From: Leucosporidium creatinivorum | Taxonomy: Eukaryota; Basidiomycota; Microbotryomycetes; Leucosporidiales; Leucosporidiaceae | Direction of reading: 5' to 3' | DNA length: 64,000 bases | Assembly: GCA_001600635.1 (NCBI GenBank) | Contig: BCKL01000001.1 | Coordinates: forward strand, 275,550 to 339,549 | Shown: piece by piece, positions 1 through 16,670 of the stretch | Position numbering within the stretch: position 1 is the first letter of the stretch | Layout of the letters: each line of letters starts with the position of its first letter | Notes under the pieces: model-generated | Seen by the model: only the letters and a program-made list of their open reading frames with translations | The model's database searches: none | Told to the model about the DNA's origin: nothing | Program-made: the position numbers and the translations under genes

Positions 1-2356
1 GATGCAGGGGTCGGCGACGAGAGGAGTGTAGCCGACGCTGCGGAGGATCGAGTCGTACTTGGTGTTCCAGCAGCGTCCTGCTTGGCGAAGGCCGTAGAGC
101 GACTTCTTGAGGTGCAGGAGCTTGCCGGCGAGCGAAGGACGCAACTTGACNAACTCGTCGGGGATGGTCATGTAGAGGTGGTCCTCCTTGAGCTCGCCAT
201 GAAGGTACGCCTTGTTGATGTCCGTTTGCTCAACAATGTAGTCGTGCTCGACGAAGTGGGCGATGAGGGAGCGAAGTGACGTGAACTTGAGCGTCGGCGA
301 GAAGGTCTCCTTGAAGTCGAGCTGCTCGCGCTGAGTGTTGCCCATGGCAACCATGCGGACCTTCTTGTCGATGATGACTCCCTTGGCGTTGTACTTGTAC
401 GTGAGGACGAGCTTGGAGCGGAGGATCTTGGCGTTGCGTGGGAGGCTGCCGCGCTCGACNTAGTCGTAGACCTTGTACTCGTCTCGGAGCGAGTCGAACT
501 CCTCGAACGCCTTGGCAGTCCACGCTTCTGCATCCTCGGACTCGAGCGCCTTCTTGAACGACTTGGGAGCCTTGGTCGGGAGCGTGAATTCGTCCTGAGC
601 CNAGCNGGCGAAGGCGCTGTTGAGGGCGGCGAGGAAGCCGGTCATCTCGAGAGGATCTTGTGAATCGTCCGAGCCCTCCTCCTGGAACGAGCCACGAGGG
701 ATGTTGGGGTCGTTGACGGTTCCCGCCTCGGCGTTCGTTGGCTCGAGGAAGTCAAATTCGCTCCCATCTTGGTTGCTCGATGCGGCGGGCGATCCAACGG
801 TTCCAAGCGCGTCCGAGTCCTCCTGCGAGGGTGAAGGCAAGTTCCCGCGAAGCGAAGCCGTCGAATCTCGGTGGAGGATGCGTCCTGGAGCTGCTCCCGA
901 GTGCGAGATGTCCGATGCTGAGCCCGAGGACGACGAGGACGACGATGAGGACGAGGACGACGACGAAGAAGATGTATCCTGCTGCTGCTGCTCTGCCGAG
1001 GCTTGAGGAGAAGACGAGCGCTCGGGAGAAGAAGTGGTCGCGCGAAGGGGCGTCAGCAGCGTCAAAGTCGTCTCGTACTCAGTGCTCTCGCCANGACGTA
1101 CNGACGGCGGTGAGGGTCTCNAAAGATTCCCATCACCGCGAACGTTGTCCTGCTTGAGAGGGAACTCGTCCTCGTTGAAGTAGACGCTCCTTGCTCGGAT
1201 GATTCCCTTGGTTGGCGACTTGGACTCGTCCCAGATGCGGTAGAAGCCGTCCTTGGACTCGAAGCCGAGGAGGATGCAATCGACGGTGATCGGGTCGAGC
1301 TTGGTGCGGAGCTCCTTCGGCTTGTAGACGCGAGCGCGAATGCCGAAGGTGCGGATGTGGGCGAGAGAAGGTGTCTTGCCGCTCCAGCGGAAGATGGGAG
1401 TCTTGCCCTTGAGCGCGGTGTGGCCGGTGCGGTTGTAGACGTGCAGGGTGTACTTGAGCGCCTCTCCCCACCACTGCTTGCCCATCCCCGACTGGAAGAG
1501 GAGGGCGCGAACCGACTCTGCGAGAGTGCGGTTGATGCGCTCTGCGCGCGCGTTGTTGCGAGGTGTGTAGGGAATGGTGAGCTCGTGNNTNATCCCGCGC
1601 TCGTCGAGGTAGGCGATGAACTCCTTGGANAGGTACTCGCCGCCGTTGTCCGTACGGAAGGCGATGAGNTTCTTGCCGGTGGAGCGTTCGGCGGAGGCGA
1701 GCCAGGACTTGAACTCGGCGAAGGCGTCGCTCTTGTTCTTGAGGAGCCTGACCTCGAGGAGGCGACTCGCGTCGTAAGTGATCGTCATGGCGTAGCGTGC
1801 TCCTCCAAAGGTGCGAGTGCCGAAGTCGAGGAGATCCGAGTGAGTAGACGAGCTCGAGGATGTCGGACGCGAGGGAAGGGGAGGGGGGAAACGGCNACTG
1901 TGTAGCTTTNGCTTGAACACACGCCTCGCACTTTTTCACTTCATCTACACTGTTATCAGTCACTGCTACATCAAGGCCCGAGACGGCGCCCGACTTCACA
2001 AGCTCCTGAATAGCAGAGAGAGATCGGTGGCACAGGCGTCGATGTGCTGTCAGCCCATCTACCTTCGACGAAGGAGCGGCGACAAACCCCGAGGGGNGAG
2101 ACGTACAGGAACTGCAGTCGAGGTGGAGGAGGCCGTTGCGGAGGGAAGCCGAGGTGACGAGAGCGCCCGACTTGTCCTGGATCTTCGCTCCGCCCGAGTT
2201 GATGGTGACCTTGAAGCCGACGGTCTCGGCGAGAGCGTTGGTCGAGATGAGCGTGATGGCGAGGGAGGGAACAAAGAAGCACGTCCCGAGGCGAAGGATC
2301 CTTCCCGAGGGCATCTCGAGCGCGATCTCTCCGACGTGGGTGGCGACGGCTCCAGG

Positions 2357-2456
2357 NNNNNNNNNNNNNNNNNNNNNNNNNNNNNNNNNNNNNNNNNNNN
2401 NNNNNNNNNNNNNNNNNNNNNNNNNNNNNNNNNNNNNNNNNNNNNNNNNNNNNNNN
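2357..2456. other. Assembly gap (100 N)
   Basis: Exactly 100 undetermined bases, a usual default scaffold gap. The 56 bases before it (2301-2356) recur unchanged right after it (2457-2512), so the gap probably separates two overlapping contig ends rather than hiding real sequence. It lies inside copia element 1. Confidence 0.95.
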
Positions 2457-3339
2457 CCTTCCCGAGGGCATCTCGAGCGCGATCTCTCCGACGTGGGTGG
2501 CGACGGCTCCAGGCGCGACTCCGTTGATCGCCATCTTGGGGATCGACTTGACGTTGGTGAGAAGGGCGAGGTCCCCCGTCATGTTGGCGCTGGCGCCGCA
2601 GTTGAGGATGATGGGGCAGTTGCTGGGAGGCTTCCTGTCCGACTTGCCTCCGCCCGAGCGGGCTCCGCCGAATGAATGAATATATCTCGTTTAAAGACCT
2701 GCAAGCTACCAAGGCTTATGTAGTCTATCAGAAAAGAATCTGAACAAAAGAGGAACCGGAGAAGCAAGGCGCCGAAGCGCGTGAAGTGTAAATAATAGCG
2801 TGGGGGGAAAGTGATGTGGCGAGGATGGTCCCTGTGTTGGCGCTCCCGCCCGTCCAAGTCCCTCCGCCCCTCCATCGACCTGACCTCCTTCCTCGTCCAC
2901 CTCCGCTAGAGGTCCTTGCAGGAGCGACCGAGGACGAGCTTGAGGTGCTTGGCCCACTTGAGGTAGTTGCTGGGGCCGATGAGATGACGGTCGGAAGCAA
3001 GAGTGCCAAAGCTGGGAGCCTTGGCGCTCTGCTGAACGATACGCTCGGGCGCCTTGTTGTCCTCCTCGTCGCTGCCGGCCATGGCTGCTGAGGTGGTGGT
3101 GGGGCTGCTGTGGAGCCGCTGTTGAGCGAGAGCCTAGGCTGACGCGTTGCGTCGACTTGGAAGTCGAAATTGAGCCGTCCTCTTGACGAGGGAGCGGTGG
3201 GAGGGTGTAGTGTAGTCGATTAGGAGTGACCTAGGTCGACTGGGCGAGCTCCGGAAAGCTGTAGTGTNGCGCAGGAGCCGGTGGCAAAGTCTGACTTGAC
3301 TTGCGTCTTTTGAGGGAGCAGTCGGGTTGTAGGTCGATT

Positions 3340-3351
3340 GGGCTCATAACC
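3340..3351 (-). promoter_or_regulatory. Primer binding site of copia element 1 (half-tRNA type)
   Basis: On the minus strand this reads GGTTATGAGCCC directly after the LTR end. That is complementary to the anticodon arm of fungal initiator tRNA-Met (which contains GGGCTCATAACC), not to a tRNA 3' end. Some copia-type elements are known to prime from an internally cleaved initiator tRNA, so the site fits the family. A near copy lies at 9192-9204. Confidence 0.7.
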
Positions 3352-3360
3352 TATCAGAGC

Positions 3361-3445
3361 CTGAGGTCGACTGCTTCAGACTAGCTCCTTACAGACATGC
3401 TACAACTACTCAAACTCACCTGAGGTCGACTACTTCAGACTAGCT
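3361..3445 (-). repeat. LTR-end direct-repeat unit C2 with intron-like spacer
   Basis: Two 26-bp copies, 3361-3386 and 3420-3445, differ at one base and are spaced 59 bp start to start. On the minus strand each copy ends in CAG. The first is followed by a 33-nt spacer starting GTGAGTTTGAGTAG, and the second leads into the sequence before the primer binding site. The layout looks like a GT-AG intron whose acceptor lies in the repeat. Confidence 0.8.
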
Positions 3446-3459
3446 TGTACAGATGTGTA

Positions 3460-3553
3460 CTGGGGCGCAAAGACACTCAGACAAGGCTCTAATGCAACGT
3501 TGTACACCCTACTCAACCACTCACCTGGGGCGCAAAGACACTCAGACAAGGCT
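3460..3553 (-). repeat. LTR-end direct-repeat unit C1 with intron-like spacer
   Basis: Two identical 29-bp copies, 3460-3488 and 3525-3553, spaced 65 bp. On the minus strand each ends CCCCAG. The 36-nt spacer starts GTGAGTGG and ends TGCATTAG. Unit C2 follows 14 bp later, so this LTR carries two such units in a row. Confidence 0.85.
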
Positions 3554-3917
3554 GAGGTCAAGAGCCGCAGGTGCTCCTCCGCTCCTAAGTCCTCCCCGGA
3601 TAGGGGTCACATCTCCTCCTCAAGTGTCCCTCCCCTTGGGAGTGGTACACACCGTGTAGGTCGATTCCAGTCGTCCTGAGCGGTGGGAGAGAGGAGGAAG
3701 GTCGACTTGATGGAGAGAGGCGAAGGGAGCCGAAGGGGAGTGAGCCGAAGCGAAGGGAAAGGAAGGGCGTCCAGCGCCTCGGATAAGTTGGTAGAAGTAG
3801 ACGAGGTGCTTGTGATGACGATGAGGTAGATGATGAAGAGGAAGAAGCTTGGAGACGTCCTTGGCCGCCAGCGCAAGGTGACGGAGTTGACTCGGCGATG
3901 GCTAAGTCCTGCTCCTC

Positions 3918-6050
3918 TCAACACCCCCCCTCACTCCCATGGATGGGGGGAGGGACGACGTCCATGCGATCCCGATGTCCTTCGAAAGCGGAGCAAGCGA
4001 GAGGCTTCGTGAGGATGTCGGCGGTCATGTCCTCGGTGCGCACATACGAGATGTCGATGAGGCCGAGCTTGACGGCTTCGGAGATGCCACGTTCGTCGAG
4101 GCGAGCCTGNTTGATCTTCTCGTGGTGCTTGGGGTTCTTGGCGATCTCGATGGCCAAGGTGTTGTTGCCTAAGACCTTGATGGGCTGCTCGGCGCCAAGT
4201 CCAAGCTCCATGAGGAGCTGTCCGAGGAAGATGGCCTCGTGAGTNGCCTTGGACTGCGCGATGTACTCGGCGTTGGTCGTCGAATGTACTGCTCGACGTT
4301 GGTCGTTGAATGTACTGCTCAACATTGTTTCTTGGAAGACCATGAGACGGCGGCGCCCGCGGCGATGAAGACGTGTCCCGAAGTCAAATGCCCGTCTTTG
4401 ATATTGTCGCCGTACGCCGAATCGGTGTAGCCGTGCAGCGGGACGCTGGTCGACTTGTAGAGGAGGCCGTGCTCGTGGGTCGTCCTGAGGTAGCGAAGGA
4501 TCCTCAGCGCCGCCTCAAAGTGCTCCCTGCGAGGTCCCGAGCTGTACTGCGCGATCTTGGAGACGGCGTAGGTGATGTCGGGACGAGTGGCTGTTGAGCA
4601 GTAGGCGAGCGAGCCGACGAGGGAGCAGAAGCGATACTTGTCGCTTGGCAAGGCATTGGGGTCGGCCGAAGGGAGTTTGGAGAGAGCATCGGCGACCAGG
4701 GGGGTGTAGACGGCGCGTCGAGGTTCGTCGGGAGGAAGGCCTCGACCATGTCGTCGATGTACCTCGGCTGGTTGAGGTGGTAAGACCCGTCAGCGAGACG
4801 CTTCGTCTGGACGCCGAGGTGGCATGTCAGAGCGCCGTTCTCCTTGATCTCGTACGCCTTCTTGAGAGCCGCCTTCTGCTTGTCGAGCTCCTTCTGCTCC
4901 CGAGCGAGGTGTGCTGTGTTGTCGACGTAGAGGCCAATGTAGTCCCAGCCGTTCTTGCCCTTGGCTTTCGACTTCTTGGTGTAGACGCAGGGGTCGGAGA
5001 GGGTGGGGAGGTAGCCCTCAAGACGGATGGTGCGATCGACGTTCTTGTTCCAGCAGCGACCCGCTTGCTTGAGGCCGTAGAGCGACTTCTTGAGGTGGAA
5101 GACGCGGTCCTTGAGCTCGGGCATGATCTCGACGAGAGCCTCGGGGATGGAGAGGTAGAGGTTGGTCTTGTGGAGCTCGCCATGAAGGTACGCCTTGGTG
5201 ACGTTGCAGGTCTCGAGGAGGAGGTCGTCCCCGGCGGCGAGGGCGAACATGGTGCGGAACGAGGGGAACTTGAGAGTCGGGGAGTAGGTCTCGGTGTAGT
5301 CGTCCTTCCCTTGAAGGTTGCCCATCGCTACGATGCGGACTCGGTGAGCCCTCGGCTTGCCCTCGGTGTCTCGCTTTGTCTTGAAGATGGCCTTGGAGGG
5401 GAGAAGACGCGCGCCGCGAGGTAGCTTCCTGCGGGCAATGGGCAACATGACCTTGTACTTGTGAACAAGGTCGTTGACCTCCGAGACGAGTCCTGCTCTC
5501 CAATCGTCGGCGTGCTCCGTCTTGAGGGCAGCCTTGATGCTCCGTGGCTCGTTGGCTGGTCGGAGGAAGGCGGTCTTGTCGCGGAACGTCTCTCCCGTCT
5601 TGGCCATGAAGGATGCGAGGAAGCCGAGCTCGTCGTCCAATTCCTGCTCAAGTCCAGCGTCGAGTGGGTTCCCCTTGATGGCCTCCTTCTCCTCCTCGCT
5701 GAAGGGGATGGGAGGGGCGAGTTGCGCCGGTGGGAGCCTCATTGTGTCAGGTGATCTGCCGGTGGAGGTAGAGGGCGGAAGGTTGAAGTGGACTCGACAA
5801 GGTGCTGGAGACGGTGAAGCTGTAGTTGAGCAATCCGACGCCTCCAAAGATGGCTCGGCGGGGGAGCCCCCCCTGCCTCTAGCGGGGGTGGGAGAGACTG
5901 GCGAGCTTGAGGAGACCCTGGGCGTCTTGCGATGAGGTTGCGGGTCGCTGCTCCCGGAGCTGCCGCTCGAGCTGCTCTCCTCGCTGCTACTGCTGGTCTC
6001 GTGATCATCATGCTCGTCGTCCGAGGGAGGAGCGCTGTGCTGGGGCGAGA
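3918..6050 (-). mobile_element. Ty1/copia retrotransposon, element 2 (fossil)
   Basis: Minus-strand copia reverse transcriptase (about 4700-5850) and RNase H (about 3920-4650), with family signatures such as AYLHGELHK, SLYGLKQAGR and LVGSLAYCSTATRPDITYAV. Upstream of about 6050 the copia coding similarity stops, where a plus-strand LTR-like piece begins, so the Gag and integrase part is absent or replaced. It is a broken copy with a few interruptions. It ends against the LTR at 3353-3923 and forms a head-to-tail pair with element 1. A diverged LTR at 7982-8480 may be its 5' LTR. Confidence 0.85.
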
Positions 6051-6167
6051 CGGGCGTGTTGCTAGTGGTATTGGGTTTCCCCGGCTCCTACTCTCACTCA
6101 GCTCAAGACCCCTATCTCTGAGTGGGACTTAGGAGCGGCGGGCTGCCTCTGCAGGAGGTTTCTCTCT

Positions 6168-6256
6168 AACTTCATCTGAGAGAGTCTCCTGCAGGTGAGC
6201 ATTTGTAGTCTCTCTTTCTGCTGCATTAGAACTTCATCTGAGAGAGTCTCCTGCAG
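6168..6256 (+). repeat. LTR-like direct-repeat unit A with intron-like spacer
   Basis: Two identical 27-bp copies, 6168-6194 and 6230-6256, spaced 62 bp. Each ends CTGCAG. The 35-nt spacer starts GTGAGCATTTGTAG and ends CTGCATTAG. About 60 bp upstream are the CCCCTATC and GGACTTAGGAGCGG blocks also seen before units B and C1, so this is probably the end of a plus-strand LTR fragment (about 6055-6256). No primer binding site follows. Confidence 0.8.
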
Positions 6257-7981
6257 CCTTAGCGACAGACAACGTCATCCACACCCTCACGCCTACCTCG
6301 ACTCCCTTCGCCGTCGCCTCGCCCCTCGTCAACTTGAACGTCAACGCCGAGCCCGTTGTCGAGGCGCCCAACAACGCCGAGGCGCTGCCCCACGTCGCTG
6401 CTTCACAAGATCATCATCACGTCACTCATTTTGTCAACACCACCATCGTCAACTCGCCTATCTCGGTCCTTCAAGGGTGGCCTAATGCCGTCGCCGAGTT
6501 CCATTCCTTTGTTCAGCCTCCCATCAACACTCCGCCTCGCACCCAGCATCGCCCTCAAGCTCGCACCCCTGATGGAACTCCCCCTTCTTGCCGTCCCATC
6601 ATTCTTGACTACTCCCCCGTCGTCTCTTCACCTCTCGCCTCGCCTACCGCACCTTCGCCGAACCACTCTTCCTCGGCTCGATTGCCTTCAACTCGAACTC
6701 TCTGCAAGTGTCACAAAGCGACAAAGGACACGAGGACCCCGATCGATTACGGCGACCTTCATGGCAACAACACGGGATGGGAATCGACGAGGGAGCGATA
6801 GCCGAGCGCAGGGTCGGCGTACCCCCTTCCTGTCGGGATGGAGGCATCGGTGGAGGCTGAGTTGAGGAACAGGGAGTTTAGGAGGTAGAGTGAGCGAGGA
6901 ACGGGGGGAGTGGAGGCGAGGAAGGGGTGGAGAAGGGCTCGGGGAGGAGGGAGATCGAGGAGGGTCGGCGCTGAGGAGGAATAGAAGGGGAGAGAGGGGT
7001 GTCTTAGAGAAAAAGGAGGGTAGAGAAAAGGGTGGAGACCAGTAGCCGAGGGATGTAGGAAGGTAGAGGGCTTTTTGCGGCGGGAGTCCGAGGGTTGTTG
7101 TAGAATCCTCTTATAGGCCGTTTCTCTCTTCCTCTCTTGTTCTTCAGGACCCTGCAAGCTCTTGAATTTACCCATATTCTTGTGCTTCTAATCCTCCCGC
7201 AGGCTCCTAGTCGTCAGCTCAGTTTCCACCTCTCCTCACTTCGCCCAAGCCTCCCCTTCCGCTCTCTCATCTCCCGCCCCTCTCAACTTCACTCCTACTC
7301 CTTCCCACTCACCCCGTGTTGAAAAGTCAACGAGGTTCCTTTACCCCCCTCTAACTTCCTGTTGTCTCACTTTTGCTCTACCTGTCTTCTTTCCCCTCCT
7401 ACCCCTCGTCGCCGAACCTCGTCCCTCCCCCAATCTTCGCCTCGCTCTCTCTCCAGTCTCACTCTCTCTTAGTTTAGCTCTCTCAATAGTTTCCTCTTGC
7501 TTAGCTCCTCCTCTCTAGTACTACTCTCCCCCTCACTTAGAAGCTCCCATCGCGCCAGCAAGCCGACAAACCATTGCCGAACCCCTTAGCTTGCCTCTTG
7601 CCAGCTCTTCCCTGCCTCAGCCAAGGCAGCGCCGGTCTTGCTACTTCACCCAGTGACACCACAAAGGACACCATGGATGTCTCAGTGTTGCTCAATACGC
7701 ACACAGACGCAGTGCTGAGGTTTGCAATGGCGACTGGACGCTTCCCTCGCTACCATTCAGGGAAGCTGGAGACGGATCAGCGGAGGAAGAAGGCCGAGGC
7801 TCAGGGATGAGTGGAAATTGAGGTGAGTAGCATTGAAGTCTCTCTACTATTGTGGAGAGGAGAGGACGTGCAAGGTGGATGAAGTGAGGAGTTGGGCAGA
7901 GGCCCGAGGGGACGGGACTTGGCGCATTTGAGCTCGAGGCCGAGGCAGCGAGGTGGTTTTGGTCAGAGGTCGAGTTATGGA
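6257..7981. other. Repeat-derived or unassigned stretch
   Basis: I recognise no gene here. One plus-strand frame stays open from before 6334 to 6801. Its product is rich in Pro, Ser and Thr with no motif I know, and could be an element leader or chance. The rest is pyrimidine-rich plus-strand sequence with short open frames. The position between copia element 2 and an LTR copy suggests retrotransposon or insertion debris. Confidence 0.4.
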
Positions 7982-8480
7982 AGCCTGAGGTCAACTGCTT
8001 CAGACTAGCTCTTTACAGACATGCTACACAACCCCCAAAGACTCGCATCCCTCACTTCCACCAAATCACTCCATACTCCTCCTAAATGATACCCAGTGGG
8101 AGTAAACCCTCTTGAGCGAGTACCTGGCCAAGAGGGATGAGCAAAAGTCGAGGAGAGAGGGCCAACACTTGAAGGCGCGCCGAAGTGGAATCGAACCTAT
8201 GGGAGATGAACTCGAGGTAGACGTCCTGATGGTGTACATGATGAGGTAGCCGATGAGGTAGATGATGATGATGATCTCGTGGTAGAACTTGTGGTAGATG
8301 CCAATCATGAGGTAGTGGTCGGCCGTCTCAACAGTGAACACAAGTCTTGATGATGACGATGATGAGTAGCTTCTCAATGGTCTCTTGTAGAGACCCAGCT
8401 CATCCACCACACTATTACAGTATCTGCACCCTTCCAGGCCTTAGCCACCCCTCCTCCTCCTCCTGATCCTCTCCGCTTTG
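7982..8480 (-). repeat. Diverged copia LTR copy
   Basis: The start (7982-8010) matches the right half of unit C2 and its spacer on the minus strand. The stretch around 8211-8290 resembles 3786-3850 in the shared LTR (GATGAGGTAGATGATGA runs). The primer binding site next to it is not recognisable. It may be the 5' LTR of element 2, older than the one at 3353-3923. Borders are approximate. Confidence 0.5.
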
Positions 8481-8799
8481 TCTACTCATAAAGGTGGTCT
8501 CAATGGGCGAAAGCTTGACATAGACTGAAACACNATAAACTAAACTAAACTAAACACCTTGAGCAGGATCCTAGCCAGACAAAGTGTTGCTTCTGATGTA
8601 GGTTGACAAGATGAAGCAACCCTTGCACAGCTGATGACTCCACGACAACGCTTCCCATGTCTCTGCAAGGTACTCAATGTTGCAAAGAGCGACGGAGAGG
8701 CTTCTTGCTGCGAGTGTGGCTCAATGACCGTCTGTCCATTGTCCTTGCTGTTCCCTCGACACTTAAAGCATCATTGCGTCACCTTGGGCAGGATCCTAG
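8481..8799. other. Spacer with short repeated motif
   Basis: No gene seen. The motif TTGAGCAGGATCCTAG or a close variant occurs near 8561 and 8783 and again at the LTR start at 8800, suggesting fragments of LTR tips. Confidence 0.35.
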
Positions 8800-9190
8800 T
8801 GTTGAGCAGGATGCTTAGGTCACCACTTTCACCTCACCATCAGCTTCAGCATCACCCTCTCTCTCCCTTCCTTTCGACCTCCGTTCGAGTCCGAGCGCGG
8901 CAACCTCTCATCCTCCTCACCCTTTGCTCTACACGCTCTCTCCTTGCTCAAGTAGCTCATCAGAGCATGTATCAGTCTCTACTCCAACTTTGGGACAGCG
9001 AGGAGGAGTTTTGGGATGGGAGCCCCTATCGGACTTAGGCGGATTTAAGTCCCCGGCGTGGGCGCTCACCTGGCTTTCTCTTCAGACTCTGTCTGATCGA
9101 GTACATCGCCAGGTGAGTTTGTGTAGCTAGTCTTTGATGCATTTGAGACTCTGTCTGATCGAGTACATCGCCAGTTCTCTGTACCTCTAT
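8800..9190 (+). repeat. 5' LTR of copia element 3
   Basis: Begins TGTTGAGCAGGA, like the start of the shared LTR on the other strand. It carries GAGCCCCTATC and GGACTTAGGCGG near 9022-9045, then unit B, and ends just before a primer binding site at 9192. It is shorter than the LTR at 3353-3923. No matching 3' LTR was found downstream. Confidence 0.55.
9084..9174 (+). repeat. LTR-end direct-repeat unit B with intron-like spacer
   Basis: Two identical 29-bp copies, 9084-9112 and 9146-9174, spaced 62 bp, each ending CGCCAG. The 33-nt spacer starts GTGAGTTTGTGTAG and contains GATGCATTTG. The repeat differs from those in units A, C1 and C2 but is alignable with them, while the copies inside the unit are exact. 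Confidence 0.85.
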
Positions 9191-9191
9191 A

Positions 9192-9204
9192 GGTTATTGA
9201 GCCC
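9192..9204 (+). promoter_or_regulatory. Primer binding site of copia element 3
   Basis: GGTTATTGAGCCC follows the LTR end. It is the same half-tRNA initiator-Met complement as at 3340-3351, with one extra T. Confidence 0.6.
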
Positions 9205-9233
9205 AAACGCGCTGAGACCAATCAGACGGTCAC

Positions 9234-9850
9234 CTGGGCTCCACGCCGTACGGTACCAAAGGTGCCGTACTGCTCCGGTTGAAGCTCGTTCGTACCCGCC
9301 TGGAGGTAGTGGTGCGGTACAGGTACAGGGGGGTCTAAAATGTACCACTGCACCACTGAACCGCGGGATTGAGAGAGCTCGGCGAAGGTTGCTCGGCGGA
9401 GGCTCAAATGTCGTCTACAGCCGAGCTAGCTTGCTTCACTAGCCATCTTTGAGGCCCAGATAGCCTAGTGGTCTATTCTGTAGACTCCGAATATTTTGTT
9501 GGACGTTTTCAAGAGTGCTTTTGCCTGGCCAAAAGCTTTTTGCCTCCTTCGCCGGCTCGTGAAGCGAAGCGCTGAGCATCTTTAATTCACTACAAGACTC
9601 GGTTAACAAAAGAAATCCATTGCAGTGCAGTAGCGAACAGCATTTTTTCGCGGTCAACCTTTGAATACAGCTTTTCACGCCTCCCCAGGCAGCGCCGAGC
9701 TCGGACCTCGCCCTCTCCGCCCATTTTCTCGGGGTACAGGTGCACTCTGTACCCGTACCGACCTGCACCGGGTACATACGTCTTTTAACCGGTACGGTAC
9801 GGGTACAGAAGGTCGAAAAGTGTATGTTCCGTACCGTGTGGAGCCCAGCG
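9234..9850. mobile_element. 617-bp non-autonomous TIR element, copy 1
   Basis: The ends are inverted repeats: CTGGGCTCCACGCCGTACGG at the left, and at the right GTACCGTGTGGAGCCCAG followed by two extra bases. The 5-bp GTCAC flanks both sides (9229-9233 and 9851-9855), which looks like a target-site duplication. The interior is rich in GGTACGGGTAC-type motifs and holds a tRNA-like A-box (TAGCCTAGTGG near 9465). There is no transposase frame. The copy at 51905-52514 has the same ends, size and layout. It sits in the leader of copia element 3, a nested insertion. The superfamily is not assigned. Confidence 0.7.
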
Positions 9851-12800
9851 GTCACGCTACCTAATTGGTCAAGACTAGTACTCGCTCAGGAGCACCTAGG
9901 ACGCTACAGTACAAGCTTGCTCCTACTCTCCTACACCGTCTCTTCATCCCTCAACAAGTCCCCGACTTGAGGAGCCCTCCAAAAGGCAGGAACAGCAGGC
10001 ATCTTCCATCGCCTCCCACACGCGTCTTGCCCTCTTCCTTGTCACTCAGCTTGCCCCGCTTGCCTACAGCAGCAGCAGCTCATCATGGCCAACCAAACGG
10101 TCATCACCTACCGCCCACCCTCCTACAACCCTCTCCCTGAGAGCCAGCAGCTCAAGGGACTGACCAACTGGACGCCTTGGGTGCGCAAGATCAAGTCAAT
10201 CGCCGGCCCCGCACTCGCCAACCTCTTCATCAGCAACGCTTGCCCAGGCACCAACGAGGAGGACGCCGAACGCAAGATCTGGAACATGCGCCAGGAGCAC
10301 CTCTGCACCTTCATCACAAGCTCCCTCGCCGAAGGAGTCGAGACGGTCATTCCCGAGGCGGCCAACACGGTCAAGAAGATCTGGGACGCTCTCAACCTCG
10401 CCTACAACCCTCCCTTGGCCTCCTCGCTCGAAGCAGTGACGACCAAGCTCCTCAAGATCGACCTTGGCAAGTCGCGGAGCGTTGAGGACGTCGACGCCTT
10501 CACGCGCGAGTTCAAGTCGACCTTCGAGCTTGCCAAGACACAGGGACTCACCCTCAACAACCTCATTTTCATCCTCGCCATGCATGGCCTCCCTCCTTCG
10601 CTTGCCAACACGACCAAGATCTTCCCCCGCCTCGCCACCAAGTCGACCGTCACCAACAACGTCATCACCTTCCCTGCGCTCGCGGACCTCTTCTCATTGA
10701 TGAGGGAGGCGGTCCTCAAGACCAGCGCATGCAACAACGGCGGATCCTCCTCGGCTCTCGTTGCCAACAAGTCCAAGTTGTGCTCGGGCAGGTCCGACTG
10801 CGGCCCACCTCCCGGCCCGTGCCCTGCTTGCAAGCAGATCCACTGGCTTGAAGACTGCAAGCATCCCGACAAGGAGAAGAAGCAGATCGAGCTTGCCGTC
10901 GCTAGGAAGGCCAGGTTCGAGGCGAAGAAGAAGGCCAAGGAGAAGGAGGGCGCCAGCGCCAACATCGCCGAGCTCAAGTCCGACTCGGCCACTTTGACTT
11001 CCTCCTCCAACAATGACGGAGGATCGGTGCACATTGCCAACATTGGCAACATTGGCTATACACACGGAGTCAGCGCCCTCGTCGGAGTTGAAGCTGGAGC
11101 GAAGAAGATTGACGGAGCAATCGTCGTCAACTGTGGAGCCTCGGTCTGCTTCACCGGCGACTCGTCCATCCTCCGCAATGTCAAGGCCATCAAGCCTATG
11201 GAGATTGACGGCATCATCCCCGGAGCGCGCAAGACCAAGGTCGGAACCCTCGACCTCCGCACAATTGATGGAAAGACCGTCACGCTTGGCACCGTCTTCT
11301 TCGTTGAGTCGCTTGCCTACACCCTCATCTCAACTGCCGTCCTTACCAGGACCTTTGGCATCGAGATCAAGATCACCAAGACGGGAGCCATTGTCGAGAA
11401 GCCCAACCGCAAGTTCACCCTTGAAGAAGCTTGAGAGCTCAGGGGTTGTTCGCGGCCTGAAGCTCAATGATACTTCTGATAGCCTTAAAGCGGTAATGAA
11501 CTGTGATGCCTCTGCTAAAGCAAAAGCTACACGGTTACCCTTCCCTGCAAACAAAAAGACAGCGAGTGAGCTTCTAGCCCTCGTTCTCTCCGACCTCCTC
11601 GACTTCAACAAGCTCTCACACAGTCAAGCTTGCTAGCAGCCAGATCCTCAGCCTTTACCATCCAAGTCTCCCTCAACGTCTCACTTGCCCTCCATTGGAC
11701 AGAAGACCGTCCGCTTCGCCGAAGACATCTCCGAGCACAGCACCACCGACAACGAGGAGGACAAAGNNNGGGGGGGGGGGGGGGGCTTGCGGGAGCCTTC
11801 CTCCTCTCCAGATCCCCTCTTCCTTGAGCCGGACCCGTTGCACAAGCAGGTTGACAACTCCTTCGCCGCCTTCGTTGCCGAGTGCAACGCCGCCTTCGCC
11901 GAGGAGGCCATTGACGAGCTCACCCTCCCTACCGCCAAACTTAAGACGTGCAAGGAGGCCATGAACTTGCGTCTTGCTGACCAATGGAGGGCAGCCAAGA
12001 AGGAGGAGATCCGCTTGCTGAAGGACGACTACAAGGTCTTAGTCCTCGTTGACCGCTCGCAGCTCCCCTCGAACACCACGATTGTCCACTCGAAGTTTGT
12101 CTACACCATCAAGTATGACAAGAATGGCATCCCCTACAAGTACAAGGCCCGCATTGTTGCAATGGGCAACAAGGCGCAGGCAGGGATCGACTTCCACGGC
12201 ACCTTAGCGCTGACTCTTCGAGCTCCCTTGCTTCACACCTTCTTCGCCATCGCCGCCAAGCACAAAGTGCTCATTGAGCATACGGAAGTTAACAAGGCGT
12301 ACCTTCACGGCAACCTGGACGTCGACCACATCTTCATGACCCTCCCCAAGGCCGTCGTCGACAAGATGCCCGAGCTCAAGGGAAAGTTCCTGCACCTCAA
12401 GAAGTTGCTCTACAGCCTACCTCAGTCGGGAAGGATCTGGCGCAAGACCTACAACGGCGCCATTGAGAAGAACCTCGGCTGCAGGTCCATAGCGCCCGAC
12501 TCTTGCGTCTATGTCCGCACCGAGAAGCTCGGCGACAAGATTGTGCACCACCTTATGGCCGTCTACGTAAACAACGATCTGCACACGTCTATCCTCCAGA
12601 GTGAGATCAACCGTCAGAAGTTCGTTCTCAAGGACAACTTCTGACTTGAGGAGTGCAACTCGACCAAGATGATCCTCGGCATCCAGACCAGGAAGCTTGC
12701 AGATGGATTGTGACATCTCCCGCAGCCGTCCTACCTCAGCAACATTGTCAAGAAATACCTTCCCAACAAGCCGAGCCAAGTTGCGCCGTCCACATCCGGC

Positions 12801-12899
12801 TGCAGCCAGGCCTGCAGCTCCTCAAGGCTCAAGCCCAAGAAGTCCTGCCCTCCTGAGTGGCGCAAGGCTTACCTCCCCATCATCAGCTAGTAGATCCAG

Positions 12900-14011
12900 G
12901 TAGCAGATCAACTAGAGGCCAATCTGTCCACCAGCAACTGCCTACCAGGTGCTCTATCAAGGGATATGGAGAGCTCAACTGTCAAGGGCTGAACGACTTG
13001 GTCCTCAAAGGGTAGCAAGGATGTAATACTATCACTAGTAACGACTAGTAGAAGCTAAACAGGTGTGTAGGTGACTGAAAAGGACACTCAATTGATCAAC
13101 GCTTCTCGCTGCTCTCGCAAACCCTCAGCTGTCAACTCTAAACTTAGGTTTTCCAGAGGAGGGGGGGGATCTACTGAAAGCTAGGTGACTTATCTAGTAA
13201 ATCCTGGGACCCCTGTCATGGTGCAGAGCATGCCCAAGAAACACAGGGAGCGCTTCTGGAAGAGTCGCGCCCGACTCCGTAGTCGGCCCCGGCGCTCGAG
13301 GAGACGTCCCCGGCGCTCAGAACGGCAGCCCCGATGCTTCTAGAGTGAGGGCGATCATATATTACGCGTCTAGCCGCGTTGGCGCGTCTAGATAGCGAAA
13401 GACCCTCAACGGAGAGCAACTTCCGTGCTCTCTTATCTCTCTCGTCCGGCTTGCCGGCTCTGATCCGTTCTCTGCTTGCTCTGGGCGCGGCCTGGCGGTT
13501 GGAGATATCTGTGTGGCCCCCTGCCTGTGGCCCAGCGACCTCCACATTGCGCGATAAGGCTCACAGTCAAGAGAGGGATCGCCGAGGGCTGCGCCCGAAC
13601 TTCGGCTTTGCTCCCTGCTGGTCTGTACCAGCTGGCGACTATTCTGGCATCGCGCCCGACTTCTTATCTAACCGCTGCCTCCACCGAGCTGCCTACAAAA
13701 GGCGCCTCTCTGCCTCTTTCCTTCCTTCTTCTCACAGCTCCTCAACCTCTCGGCTTCGGTCTCTCACATCAGCGAGGCTCGAGCTTGAAAAGATACCATT
13801 ACTGGGCTGTGATCAGGTGCAAAGGACACACAGACAAGTCAGGAAGGGCAGCAAGGTACTAAGGCTCTTGGGAGGAGAGCAACAGGCAACTCACTTGCCC
13901 AAGCTTCACCGAGCCAATGGCCATCCTCCTCACGAAACCATTGAGGCAAGAGTGGAAGGCGTATAATCACAAACACAGCACTATATAGCTACAGATTCTT
14001 GCACCAAAAGC
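12900..14011. other. Gene-free stretch between copia debris and CIA2
   Basis: No gene, LTR or RNA gene recognised. Frames open here (for example around 13,380-13,960) have no coherent motif. The part next to 14,011 would be the 3' flank of CIA2. Confidence 0.5.
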
Positions 14012-15050
14012 TCAGACCGCCTTGCCCCTCTGATCAGCGGTGGAGAGGCACTGCTGCACGACCGAGACGAGGTGGGTGTTCTCCAGTGCGGCTGCGTGAT
14101 GAGAAGGGCTGGTCAGCCTACGCCTACTACACTCGGAGCACCAAAGCTACAAGCTACACACCAGCTACACGCTCCTTGTCATTGAGCTGCTTGTTGACTG
14201 TGAGAGGGGAGCGTAGTCAGCGCCGAGCACGACATGAAGGCAGAAGGCGTCACACACCTGCATTCTCGCTTTGGTGAGTGCCCTCCTTGACCTTGATGTC
14301 GACCTTGAAGCGCTCTGGTAGACTCCTGAGCAGCCGTACGCGAAGGGAGAGACCTGTAGCAGTCAAAAGCGAGGTCAGCCTTGCCGCGCCAGAGCCCCGG
14401 CGAAAGCAAGATCCGCGCACCAATGAGAGTAGCCATGGAGCAGTGAGGGATGGTAGGAGTGAACTCGACGAGGACGTGTGGCCGGGCGCCGTGAGTGACG
14501 GTGATTTGAGCGGCCGAGACGACGGCGAGCTGCTCGAGCGTGAGCGGATGCTCGGGGTCCGAGATGGAGCGGATGAGGTCTGGTGGGTGTAGTGCAATGG
14601 AGTCAGCGTGCTGTTTGGCGAAGCTTAGCGTGCTGCCCCTCTCTCCCGCTCAGTCGACTTGGCCAGACCCCGAGTTGGCTGAGTCTTGCCGAGCCCAGCG
14701 CGTTGCGACTACAAGGCCCGCTGTGTAGCAGGAGCGTCGTCGGATATATCGCACGAACCCCTCATCGAACCGCCGCCCCTTCCCCGCCTGCCTGCCTACT
14801 CTGCTTCGACGACACCGCGCCAGATGCGCCACTGCTGAGCTGAGCTCAGCGACTCACCAAAGATCTCGTCGCCGTCAATCTCCTCCTGCAGCTCATCGTC
14901 GTGTAGTCCGTCGTCACTGCTATCGCGGCCCAAGCGAGCCCATTCGTCGTCGTCCGAGAGGTCGAGAGAGTCTGCGCGCTTTCTTGGTCGACGAGCAGCG
15001 GCCGAGGTGTGAATGATGGGGTTGGCGTTGTCAGGGGTAGCAGAGACCAT
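14012..15050 (-). CDS. CIA2: MIP18-family cytosolic Fe-S assembly protein (CIA2/CIAO2B)
   Basis: Five exons: 15050-14858, 14579-14421, 14353-14258, 14197-14162 and 14091-14012, giving 187 aa with all phases matching. The protein has an acidic N-terminus ending DGDEIFD, then the MIP18 core: [51 protein letters not shown] and [16 protein letters not shown]. Cys111 in the PHCSMATL motif is the conserved reactive cysteine of the family. Known role: with Cia1 and Mms19 it passes iron-sulfur clusters to cytosolic and nuclear apoproteins such as DNA polymerases and helicases. The first intron (278 nt) is long for this genome; the others are 60-70 nt. The start shares a 163-bp divergent promoter with the next gene. 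Confidence 0.93.
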
Positions 15051-15213
15051 CTTGTTGGAAGCTGATGTGCTGCAGAAGCGATAAGGCGAGAAAACGAAAG
15101 GCGACTCTGAGAATAGGGGAAGAGGGAGAGAAGCGTCCAAGTCCACAGCTCGCCCTTGTACTCTCATTCGCAGCCGACTCGACTCGACTACAAAGGCAGA
15201 GGGCGAGGATGAG
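15051..15213. promoter_or_regulatory. Divergent promoter between CIA2 and the next gene
   Basis: 163 bp separates the CIA2 start codon from the proposed start of the plus-strand gene. It must hold both promoters and 5' leaders unless one start is further in. No TATA box is obvious. Pyrimidine runs lie on the CIA2-sense strand. Confidence 0.5.
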
Positions 15214-16670
15214 ATGAGTGAAGCATCGCCGTACATCTCGGTCACCCTTCGCTCTTACCCAAGACCTCCTCCAGCTCCCCCGCGCCTTCGTACAGCCGCG
15301 AGGGATCAACAAGCTGCAGCTCGTCGCCTCGTCTACGCTGCTGCTTTCGCTCCAACAAGCGGCGAGGTCAACTACAGAGATGTAGAAAGCCTGCCTCGCA
15401 CGGCCAACCCTGCTTCTGCTACAGCTGCAGCTGGTGAGTTAGCTCAGACCGCTCGCTCCTCCGTCTCCTTCGTTCGCAGCTCACTCGCAGCTATCTACAG
15501 GACACCGCTTCCATCCCCACCCTGCACCCAATCCTCCTCCTCCTCAACCCATCCCCTCCAACTCGTTCTACCAGCGATCTGCTCCTCCAGCGACCCAAAC
15601 CAGCATCCTTCGCCGCCGACCGAGCAACGAGCTCATCGGGACTCAAACGCAGGATGCTACGCGATCGAAGAAGAAGGTCCGGCTCGAGTCTCTATCGGGC
15701 TCAACACAGGCGGCAGCGACGAGCGTACAAGCGCCCAAGCCGAGCGCCGACAGCACATCGCGCGCTCGGAGCTCGCTTCGCTTTGAGCAGGAGGTCACGG
15801 TCGAGGTGGAGCCACCAACATCCAGCGCCGATTGCGATGCCGATGTTACTGGGCTTGTAGAGCGGTACGAAGATCCTGCGGAGGGTGCGATTGAGCGGTG
15901 TGTGCCCTTCGTGAGTCTCTTGCTCTCGGCCGTCGCTGTCTCGCTTCCCACGGTGACCTACACTCTGTGTGAAGCCTTACCGCCATCTTGAGGATCATCT
16001 GCCATCTACCAGCAACCCTGCGCGCCAGCACCCCGCCAAGATTCGCTACTCCTTCCTCGACCCTGCGCCGGAGAATGGGCTCTCGCACCCGCCACCCTCC
16101 TACGACCCTCACCTTTACCCCTCCGCGCTCAGCAGTCTCGCTCCCGGTCGACGCGGTGCTTGGATCGTTCCCATCTCCGGCCCTCTCCCCATCTCACACA
16201 CCTCTCCACCGATATGGCCTTATCCATTAGCGGACGGCCTCACTGCCCCCATTAAGCCATCAAAGTCCTCCAAGGGCAAGCTCAAGTCGATCGAATGGAC
16301 CGACAGTCGCCTTATCGCTCTCTGGACAGTCCTCACGGGACTACACGAACGAGCGCCGATGGGCGAAGTAAACGCGACGTGCTTCCTCTCCTCCACCGTA
16401 CTTCCCTCCGTCTCGTCCTCCACCACCGCACTACCTTCTCGATCTTACTCGCCGCTGTCATCCCCTCCCGCCCTATCTCCTCCCTCCTGGCCCGACCACA
16501 TTCGCATCGCCGGCGACGCTCACCTCGCCCTCCCTCTCCGAAGTCTCATCAGCATCGTATCGGCCAAGCAGAGCTACCGGAAGGAGGATCAACACGATAC
16601 GGAAAAGTTCTTGGAGGGGGCGCGGCTGGTGTGGGTGGATGAGGCGGGCAGGCCTGTCCTCACGGCTTGA
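15214..16670 (+). CDS. Hypothetical protein, fungal, function unknown
   Basis: Three exons: 15214-15433, 15501-15910, and 15975 (or 15993) to 16670. Both last acceptors keep the frame. The protein is about 435-440 aa. The first half is low complexity (Pro, Ala, Ser) with a basic patch TRSKKKVRLES. The second half looks folded: KIRYSFLDPAPENG, GAWIVPISGPLPI and SIEWTDSRLIALWTVLTGLH, ending FLEGARLVWVDEAGRPVLTA. I recognise no domain, signal peptide or membrane segment. The start is the least certain part because a shorter first exon would also be open. It is divergent from CIA2. Confidence 0.65.

Follow-up and report, generated by a model that had tools for sequence, protein, structure and literature searches.

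The 64-kb window analyzed here (C1:275550-339549, in the 27.7-Mb assembly of Leucosporidium creatinivorum, whose 63 contigs are denoted by C and a number) contains copia retrotransposon sequences whose long terminal repeats (LTRs) end in a tripartite unit. Each unit consists of a repeat copy (R1), a spacer (S), and a second repeat copy (R2), an arrangement denoted R-S-R. The initial annotation had described four units of this shared design, and all four were recovered, at positions 3361-3445, 3460-3553, 6168-6256, and 9084-9174 (units 1 to 4), with units 1 and 2 on the minus strand. Their repeats are 26, 29, 27, and 29 nucleotides (nt) long and their spacers 33, 36, 35, and 33 nt, respectively. 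Nonoverlapping direct repeats of at least 16 nt with starts spaced 35 to 150 nt apart occur at exactly these four places in the window, and none of this type appeared in 20 dinucleotide shuffles of the window. The sole mismatch between R1 and R2 noted at the outset is a C versus a T in unit 1, and the repeat of unit 4 can be extended to the left with one mismatch (TTCAG versus TTGAG).

Units 1 and 4 are followed by a primer binding site (GGTTATGAGCCC... and GGTTATTGAGCCC..., respectively), as had been noticed. Unit 2 stops just short of the end of its LTR, where unit 1 starts, and unit 3 lies inside a partial LTR that has no primer binding site.

The units recur at the LTR ends of eight copia families

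Three DNA queries spanning the four units gave at least 11, 23, and 22 matches in the genome. The units sit at the 3′ ends of LTRs, leaving 0 to 25 nt to the LTR end, and in 5′ LTRs a primer site such as GGTTATGAGCCC comes next. The R and S sequences distinguish eight families (A to H). Our catalogue of 68 entries comprises 51 full R-S-R units (12 in A, 4 in B, 10 in C, 13 in D, 7 in E, 3 in F, and 1 each in G and H) and 17 partial entries, 9 of which hold a single R; the other 8 have truncations, deletions, or interruptions by N or are the two halves of one odd unit. Beyond the catalogue, 11 more family H copies were read, of which 10 are full and 1 is interrupted by the end of a contig. The LTRs measure about 435 bp in family A, 393 bp in family D, and 527 bp in family C. 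A separate duplication in each insertion had been proposed, but most copies read in each family carry the same unit.

As in Ty1/copia elements, the copia reverse transcriptase domain RVT_2 adjoins these LTRs. It has 35 matches in the genome (32 over the cutoff), 3 of which lie in or overlap the window and most of the others on contigs and in stretches with these LTRs; the match on C34 is not tied to any LTR, and near two on C29 only a piece of a family C LTR was seen. A protein search places the reverse transcriptase as copia, with one named Microbotryomycetes sequence among the 120 matches listed (37% identity over 64% of the query). Paired LTRs with a tRNA primer site after the 5′ LTR were found in one family H element on C19, where GGTTATAAGCC follows the 5′ LTR and not the 3′ LTR; both LTRs have S, R2, and the end of R1, and the start of R1 in the 5′ LTR reads N. 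The two LTRs of the family H element read at both ends share an S variant absent from the other H copies read. Runs of N start at the same place inside R1 in three H units (C7:136534, C1:1794240, and C19:578240).

Ty5/copia elements are primed by half-tRNAs, their primer site being complementary to the anticodon arm of an initiator-like tRNA. The primer site of family A is of the same kind, with 14 of 14 nt pairing, by eye, with the anticodon arm of an initiator-Met-like tRNA encoded by a gene that has an insert; the primer sites of the other families depart from it by at least one base. To our knowledge, no R-S-R layout at the LTR end is known for such half-tRNA-primed elements. A tRNA pattern search returned seven places, four of which resemble tRNA genes in two inverted pairs, and one gene per pair was inspected by eye; ARAGORN, run with bacterial settings, called none of the initiator-Met-like tRNA genes. 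The genes at C5:381325 and C17:182511 (L052 and L054) have anticodon-loop inserts of about 20 and 4 nt.

Outside these LTRs the layout was not found. A genome-wide search for TCTSA followed after 10 to 18 nt by YAGGTGAGY gave 100 matches, as opposed to 19 for the reversed control, and by our count 48 of them were assigned to the eight families. Among the 52 matches outside the families, 51 were examined, and none had a repeat within about 95 nt, so that with this motif there is no sign of the copies in many unrelated host genes that characterize introners; the suggestion of an LTR-specific repeat process is borne out. The search enlarged family H and gave no ninth family. A pattern that included the primer site performed poorly, with six matches, of which four were true units, compared with 13 when the pattern was reversed as a control.

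Exact repeat edges and intron-like signals

The left edge of R falls right after a pyrimidine-rich tract in all eight families (C or T at 8 to 12 of the last 12 bases) and, with a slash marking the edge, reads TTC/AG or CTC/AG in six families, TCT/AA in C, and TTT/AG in H. At the right edge, a YAG directly precedes GTGAGT, GTGAGC, or, in G only, GTATGT, giving YAG/GTRNG in 8 of 8 families. In the reference copies the repeat ends at the left edge, extending one base further in some other H copies; on the right it stops at the donor, although in A one base beyond matches and in F and G R2 is followed by GT.

Together, S and R2 have the layout of a GT-AG intron, in line with the initial proposal: they span 58 to 65 nt, begin with a GT donor, hold a CTNA motif 12 to 20 nt before the end, and terminate in YAG (CAG in seven families and TAG in one). 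Host introns were represented by 68 unsequenced candidates, some expected by chance, that were predicted with a donor-branch-acceptor pattern between 13.9 and 64 kb of the window. Their lengths peak at 60 to 69 nt (34 observed versus a mean of 4.2 in five shuffles), their donors include GTGAGT (17), GTGAGC (12), and GTATGT (2), and they end in CAG (60 of 68) or TAG (8 of 68). The donors, branch-like motifs, acceptors, and lengths of the units resemble those of the predicted host introns; only D, G, and H have Y as the fifth base of the branch motif, which is weaker than CTRAY in the other five families. The donor GT is intact in 46 of the 51 full units and does not show the free variation that had been considered as a sign against splicing.

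Tandem duplication of an AGGT segment is a known route of intron gain, in which donor and acceptor are copies of one site. It was rejected for these units because R ends before the GT and bases other than GT follow R2 in A to E and H; in F and G a GT follows R2 coincidentally.

Signals expected at the end of an intron also occur in R1, which, lying upstream of the donor, would need neither a branch site nor an acceptor. R1 ends in an acceptor-like YAG in 8 of 8 families, as opposed to 2 of 68 predicted host exon ends and 6 of 149 plus-strand GTRNGY sites, and the combination of YAG with CTNA is present in 8 of 8 families versus 1 of 68 exon ends and 0 of 149 such sites (window, 13.9 to 64 kb). 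Their presence is expected if R1 has been forced to match R2, that is, by homogenization.

R1 and R2 change together

The R sequences differ strongly between families, each pair of families matching in 15 to 21 columns of an alignment 27 to 36 columns long. In seven of the eight families at least one copy has R1 identical to R2 and no difference between R1 and R2 is fixed; the alignment of R between the related families A and E has 28 columns, and 7 of these differ in R1 and R2 alike. Joint change is best visible in family H, where three copies (L065, L066, and L067) have CATCAG in R1 and R2 in place of the CACGAG of the other H copies read; L067 has an additional change in R2, the R1 start of L066 is cut off, and S in these three is that of L057 and L062 except for the last base. 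In family D, the copy at C2:1569392 carries T23A in R1 and R2 alike. The proposal that the repeat copies are kept alike is thus supported. By the criterion set in the initial annotation, the unit, being shared by most copies read in each family, is part of the ancestral LTR, but it is more than a passive relic, in that R1 and R2 have kept changing together.

Within family H (L057 to L065 and L067), U3, R, S, and U5, the successive LTR segments, group the copies differently, with S joining H2 and H3 and with R and U3 joining H1 and H2 (by eye). Such discordant groupings are a possible sign of template switching within the LTR.

Single-repeat LTRs and truncated pieces

Twelve copies have a single R, 9 of them in the catalogue (one an R-U5 fragment) and 3 in family H, making 11 LTRs and one fragment. 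They lack S and one R, base-exact as far as the drifted copies align, and at C36:69942 and C31:193946 the single-R copy is a 5′ LTR that has a primer site. That removal of S and one R restores a single R had been pointed out, and single-R LTRs are what splicing would leave. No R-S-R-S-R expansion was found among the units examined. In one family A unit (C1:269634-269733, L020), R1 and S are separated by an additional 15-nt fragment of R.

In four truncated pieces the sequence starts at position 1 or 2 of R, which is where an RNA 5′ end would be expected: window unit 1, which begins directly after the end of the family B LTR, two family D pieces (C12:222777 and C26:160406), and one family E piece (C5:117125). 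The D piece on C26 has 45 bp and consists of R and U5 only, as expected for strong-stop DNA of spliced RNA; the 94-bp E piece includes S, as expected from unspliced RNA.

A proposed leader intron restored by strand transfer

On a slight balance of probability, judged from these sequences, the unit is a 5′-leader intron in the LTR of half-tRNA-primed copia retrotransposons that is restored through strand transfer. R1 would be exon 1, reaching from the transcription start to the 5′ splice site, and S plus R2 would be the intron, with R2 an exon 1 copy that supplies the branch-point-like and acceptor signals. Spliced RNA would start with exon 1, U5, and the primer binding site (in family H with the junction CACAG/CCCGACTC), and its reverse transcription would produce a short strong-stop DNA copied from U5 and exon 1. 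Because the 3′ end of the RNA would carry an unspliced LTR (U3-R1-S-R2), this DNA could anneal to R2 there, and copying on through S and R1 would yield a full LTR with its intron, in which R2 has been newly copied from exon 1; if the DNA annealed to R1, a single-R LTR would result. The unspliced and spliced RNA routes probably both run. Splicing itself, the start and end points of the RNA, and the route of annealing and transfer are what we infer from the signals, edges, and products described above. Strand transfer of this kind would explain why R spans exactly from start to donor, why its edges do not erode, why R1 has acceptor signals, why R1 and R2 change jointly, and why there are single-R LTRs and no expansions.

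A broader claim, which we advance more tentatively and place just short of probable, is that this would be a retroelement intron able to survive the reverse transcription of RNA from which it has been spliced: since its 3′ part copies exon 1, first-strand transfer onto the unspliced 3′ LTR would rebuild the intron and renew the copy in each cycle. An element that replicates via RNA should lose any intron that is spliced out before the RNA is copied. If the claim is true, restoration of the intron in every cycle would be a new answer to such loss and a new route from an exon copy to intron sequence, and the concerted change of two repeats would be a by-product of strand transfer.

Several observations weigh against a restored leader intron. 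Changes of R within families are mostly private, with 28 in R1 only, 26 in R2 only, and 6 shared among the 51 units; R1 equals R2 in 22 of these units, 20 of which are without any change. TCG/CGA sites hold 30 of the 66 R changes and 5 of the 6 shared ones, and a process like repeat-induced point mutation, which targets these sites in Microbotryum according to the excerpted text of PMC6831777, could hit both R copies. All three copies of family F show a difference between R1 and R2 at position 25 (A versus G), indicating that R1 was not the last template for R2 in this family. Five families (A, B, C, E, and F) have CTGAG or CTGAA as their branch-like motif, and the prediction of host introns, having required CTRAY, is uninformative on these forms. 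Plain deletion between repeats can also yield single-R LTRs. Three of the four 5′-end junctions keep S, indicating that unspliced RNA is reverse transcribed too, and at least four other truncated LTR pieces begin elsewhere (by LTR position, family B at -44 on C10 and +39 on C24, and family C at -108 in the window and -311 on C36).

Some of these observations are what would be seen if R-S-R had been made once in an ancestral LTR and R1 and R2 had been kept alike by ordinary DNA events (gene conversion, slippage, or single-strand annealing), whether the unit is spliced or not. Such events are favored by repeats of 26 to 30 nt spaced about 60 nt apart and would account for single-R copies through deletion between repeats, for differences mostly private to one R copy, and for the family A copy with the additional R piece. 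Conversion should, however, erode the edges of the repeats, whereas the R edges are exact at the start-like and donor sites in all eight families; no R-S-R-S-R expansion was seen among the units examined; and family H, taken as young because seven of its copies match a 141-bp query at 99 to 100%, has R1 identical to R2 in 9 of the 10 full copies read beyond the catalogue. We therefore consider this origin rather unlikely, if still worth serious attention. Improbable, to a greater degree, is a function in unspliced RNA, with the repeats serving reverse transcription, packaging, or RNA 3′-end formation and the splice-like motifs being coincidental or only binding the U1 small nuclear ribonucleoprotein (snRNP) to block early polyadenylation. 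Pieces of R1-S-R2 that start at the putative RNA 5′ end do exist, and the main donor of the foamy virus 5′ LTR is a site at which U1 snRNP suppresses early polyadenylation (PMC3694450, in the excerpted text). A lone donor explains neither the acceptor nor the branch-like signals at 12 to 20 nt, and it leaves unexplained both the lengths of 58 to 65 nt, like those of predicted host introns, and the stopping of R exactly at the donor.

Two further alternatives have very little in their favor. An introner-type insertion, as raised in the initial annotation, would place a 33- to 36-nt element with a 26- to 29-bp target duplication separately in each LTR family, and it would fit the near identity of the repeats within a unit and the single R left after removal of S and R; it is rendered very improbable by the position of the unit, which is the same in the LTR copies of a family and common to most copies read, by the alignability of R between families, and by the lack of the layout in all 51 of the other motif matches examined. 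Recursive splice sites have the form YAG/GTRAG, and R1 with its following GT might be one, an upstream donor being spliced to the YAG of R1 before GTGAG is spliced to R2. The branch-like motif in R1 agrees with such a site, but a common donor was not seen by eye (no scan was made) in the 25 to 40 nt before R1, and the junctions at R1 positions 1 and 2 suggest that the RNA starts there, so that recursive splicing is hardly credible.

Relation to known introns

The major splice donor of foamy viruses is located in the R region. A strong donor inside the repeated part of the LTR, near the RNA start, is a feature they share with the units; there the donor lies upstream of the polyadenylation signal (PMC3694450, in the excerpted text), whereas here the LTR also holds an acceptor-like end and an exon 1 copy. 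The plant elements Ogre and EVADE are LTR retrotransposons with a functional intron in an RNA that also serves copying, as would be the case here, and their introns are important for producing subgenomic RNAs by alternative splicing; unlike the layout here, neither LTR introns nor restoration by strand transfer is mentioned in the excerpted text of PMC12786077. Within the portions of these two papers considered (PMC12786077 and PMC3694450), no intron lying wholly in the LTR and ending in an exon 1 copy is described for Ogre, EVADE, or foamy viruses. Fungal introners, or introner-like elements, are short introns in many near-identical copies (PMC4457414, as excerpted), as the putative introns here would be, but the copies here stem from LTR amplification, and their layout was found only in LTRs. 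A literature search, covering titles and the openings of abstracts and mostly excluding subscription papers, recognized no report of an LTR intron restored in this way, which is no proof of absence.

Genomic distribution and neighboring features

Families A to G, like the majority of RVT_2 matches, are concentrated in a single stretch per contig, whereas family H is spread along contigs. The clusters occupy window positions 1-16000, C2:1566-1609k, C5:103-127k, C12:222-246k, C19:279-310k, C24:129-151k, and C36:52-70k, and they may be centromeres.

The features of the four units and the adjoining LTRs are listed in Table 1. The repeat at 7982-8028 belongs to the further family A LTR, from which R1 has been lost.

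Table 1. Coordinates of R-S-R units and associated LTR features in the window (slash, edge of R)
Feature	Position	Strand	Remark
Family A primer binding site GGTTATGAGCCCAA	3338..3351	-	14/14 complementary to initiator-Met-like tRNA anticodon arm, gene insert omitted (by eye)
Family A remaining U5 to LTR end	3352..3360	-	
Family A R2	3361..3386	-	R1 copy, putative intron end (CTGAA ... CAG)
Family A S	3387..3419	-	Donor CAG/GTGAGT, first part of putative intron
Family A R1, putative exon 1	3420..3445	-	Starts exactly at family B LTR end; copy without U3
Family B U5 end TACACATCTGTACA, LTR end	3446..3459	-	
Family B R2	3460..3488	-	
Family B S	3489..3524	-	CAG/GTGAGT
Family B R1	3525..3553	-	
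Family C LTR remnant holding unit 3	6059..6267	+	LTR positions -108..99
Family C R1	6168..6194	+	
Family C S	6195..6229	+	CAG/GTGAGC
Family C R2	6230..6256	+	
Another family A LTR	7976..8333	-	R1 and donor deleted
Family D LTR holding unit 4	8798..9191	+	
Family D R1	9084..9112	+	
Family D S	9113..9145	+	CAG/GTGAGT
Family D R2	9146..9174	+	CTGAT ... CAG
Family D primer binding site GGTTATTGAGCCCAA	9192..9206	+	One extra T relative to family A

In one family D LTR outside the window (C12:222671-223093, L016), an inversion with partial duplication affects the end of U3, immediately upstream of R1. Just past the primer site of the family D element in the window, a 615-bp stretch (9234-9848) has 23-bp terminal inverted repeats that are 87% complementary and, by eye, CGGTCAC on either side; it looks like a nonautonomous DNA transposon.

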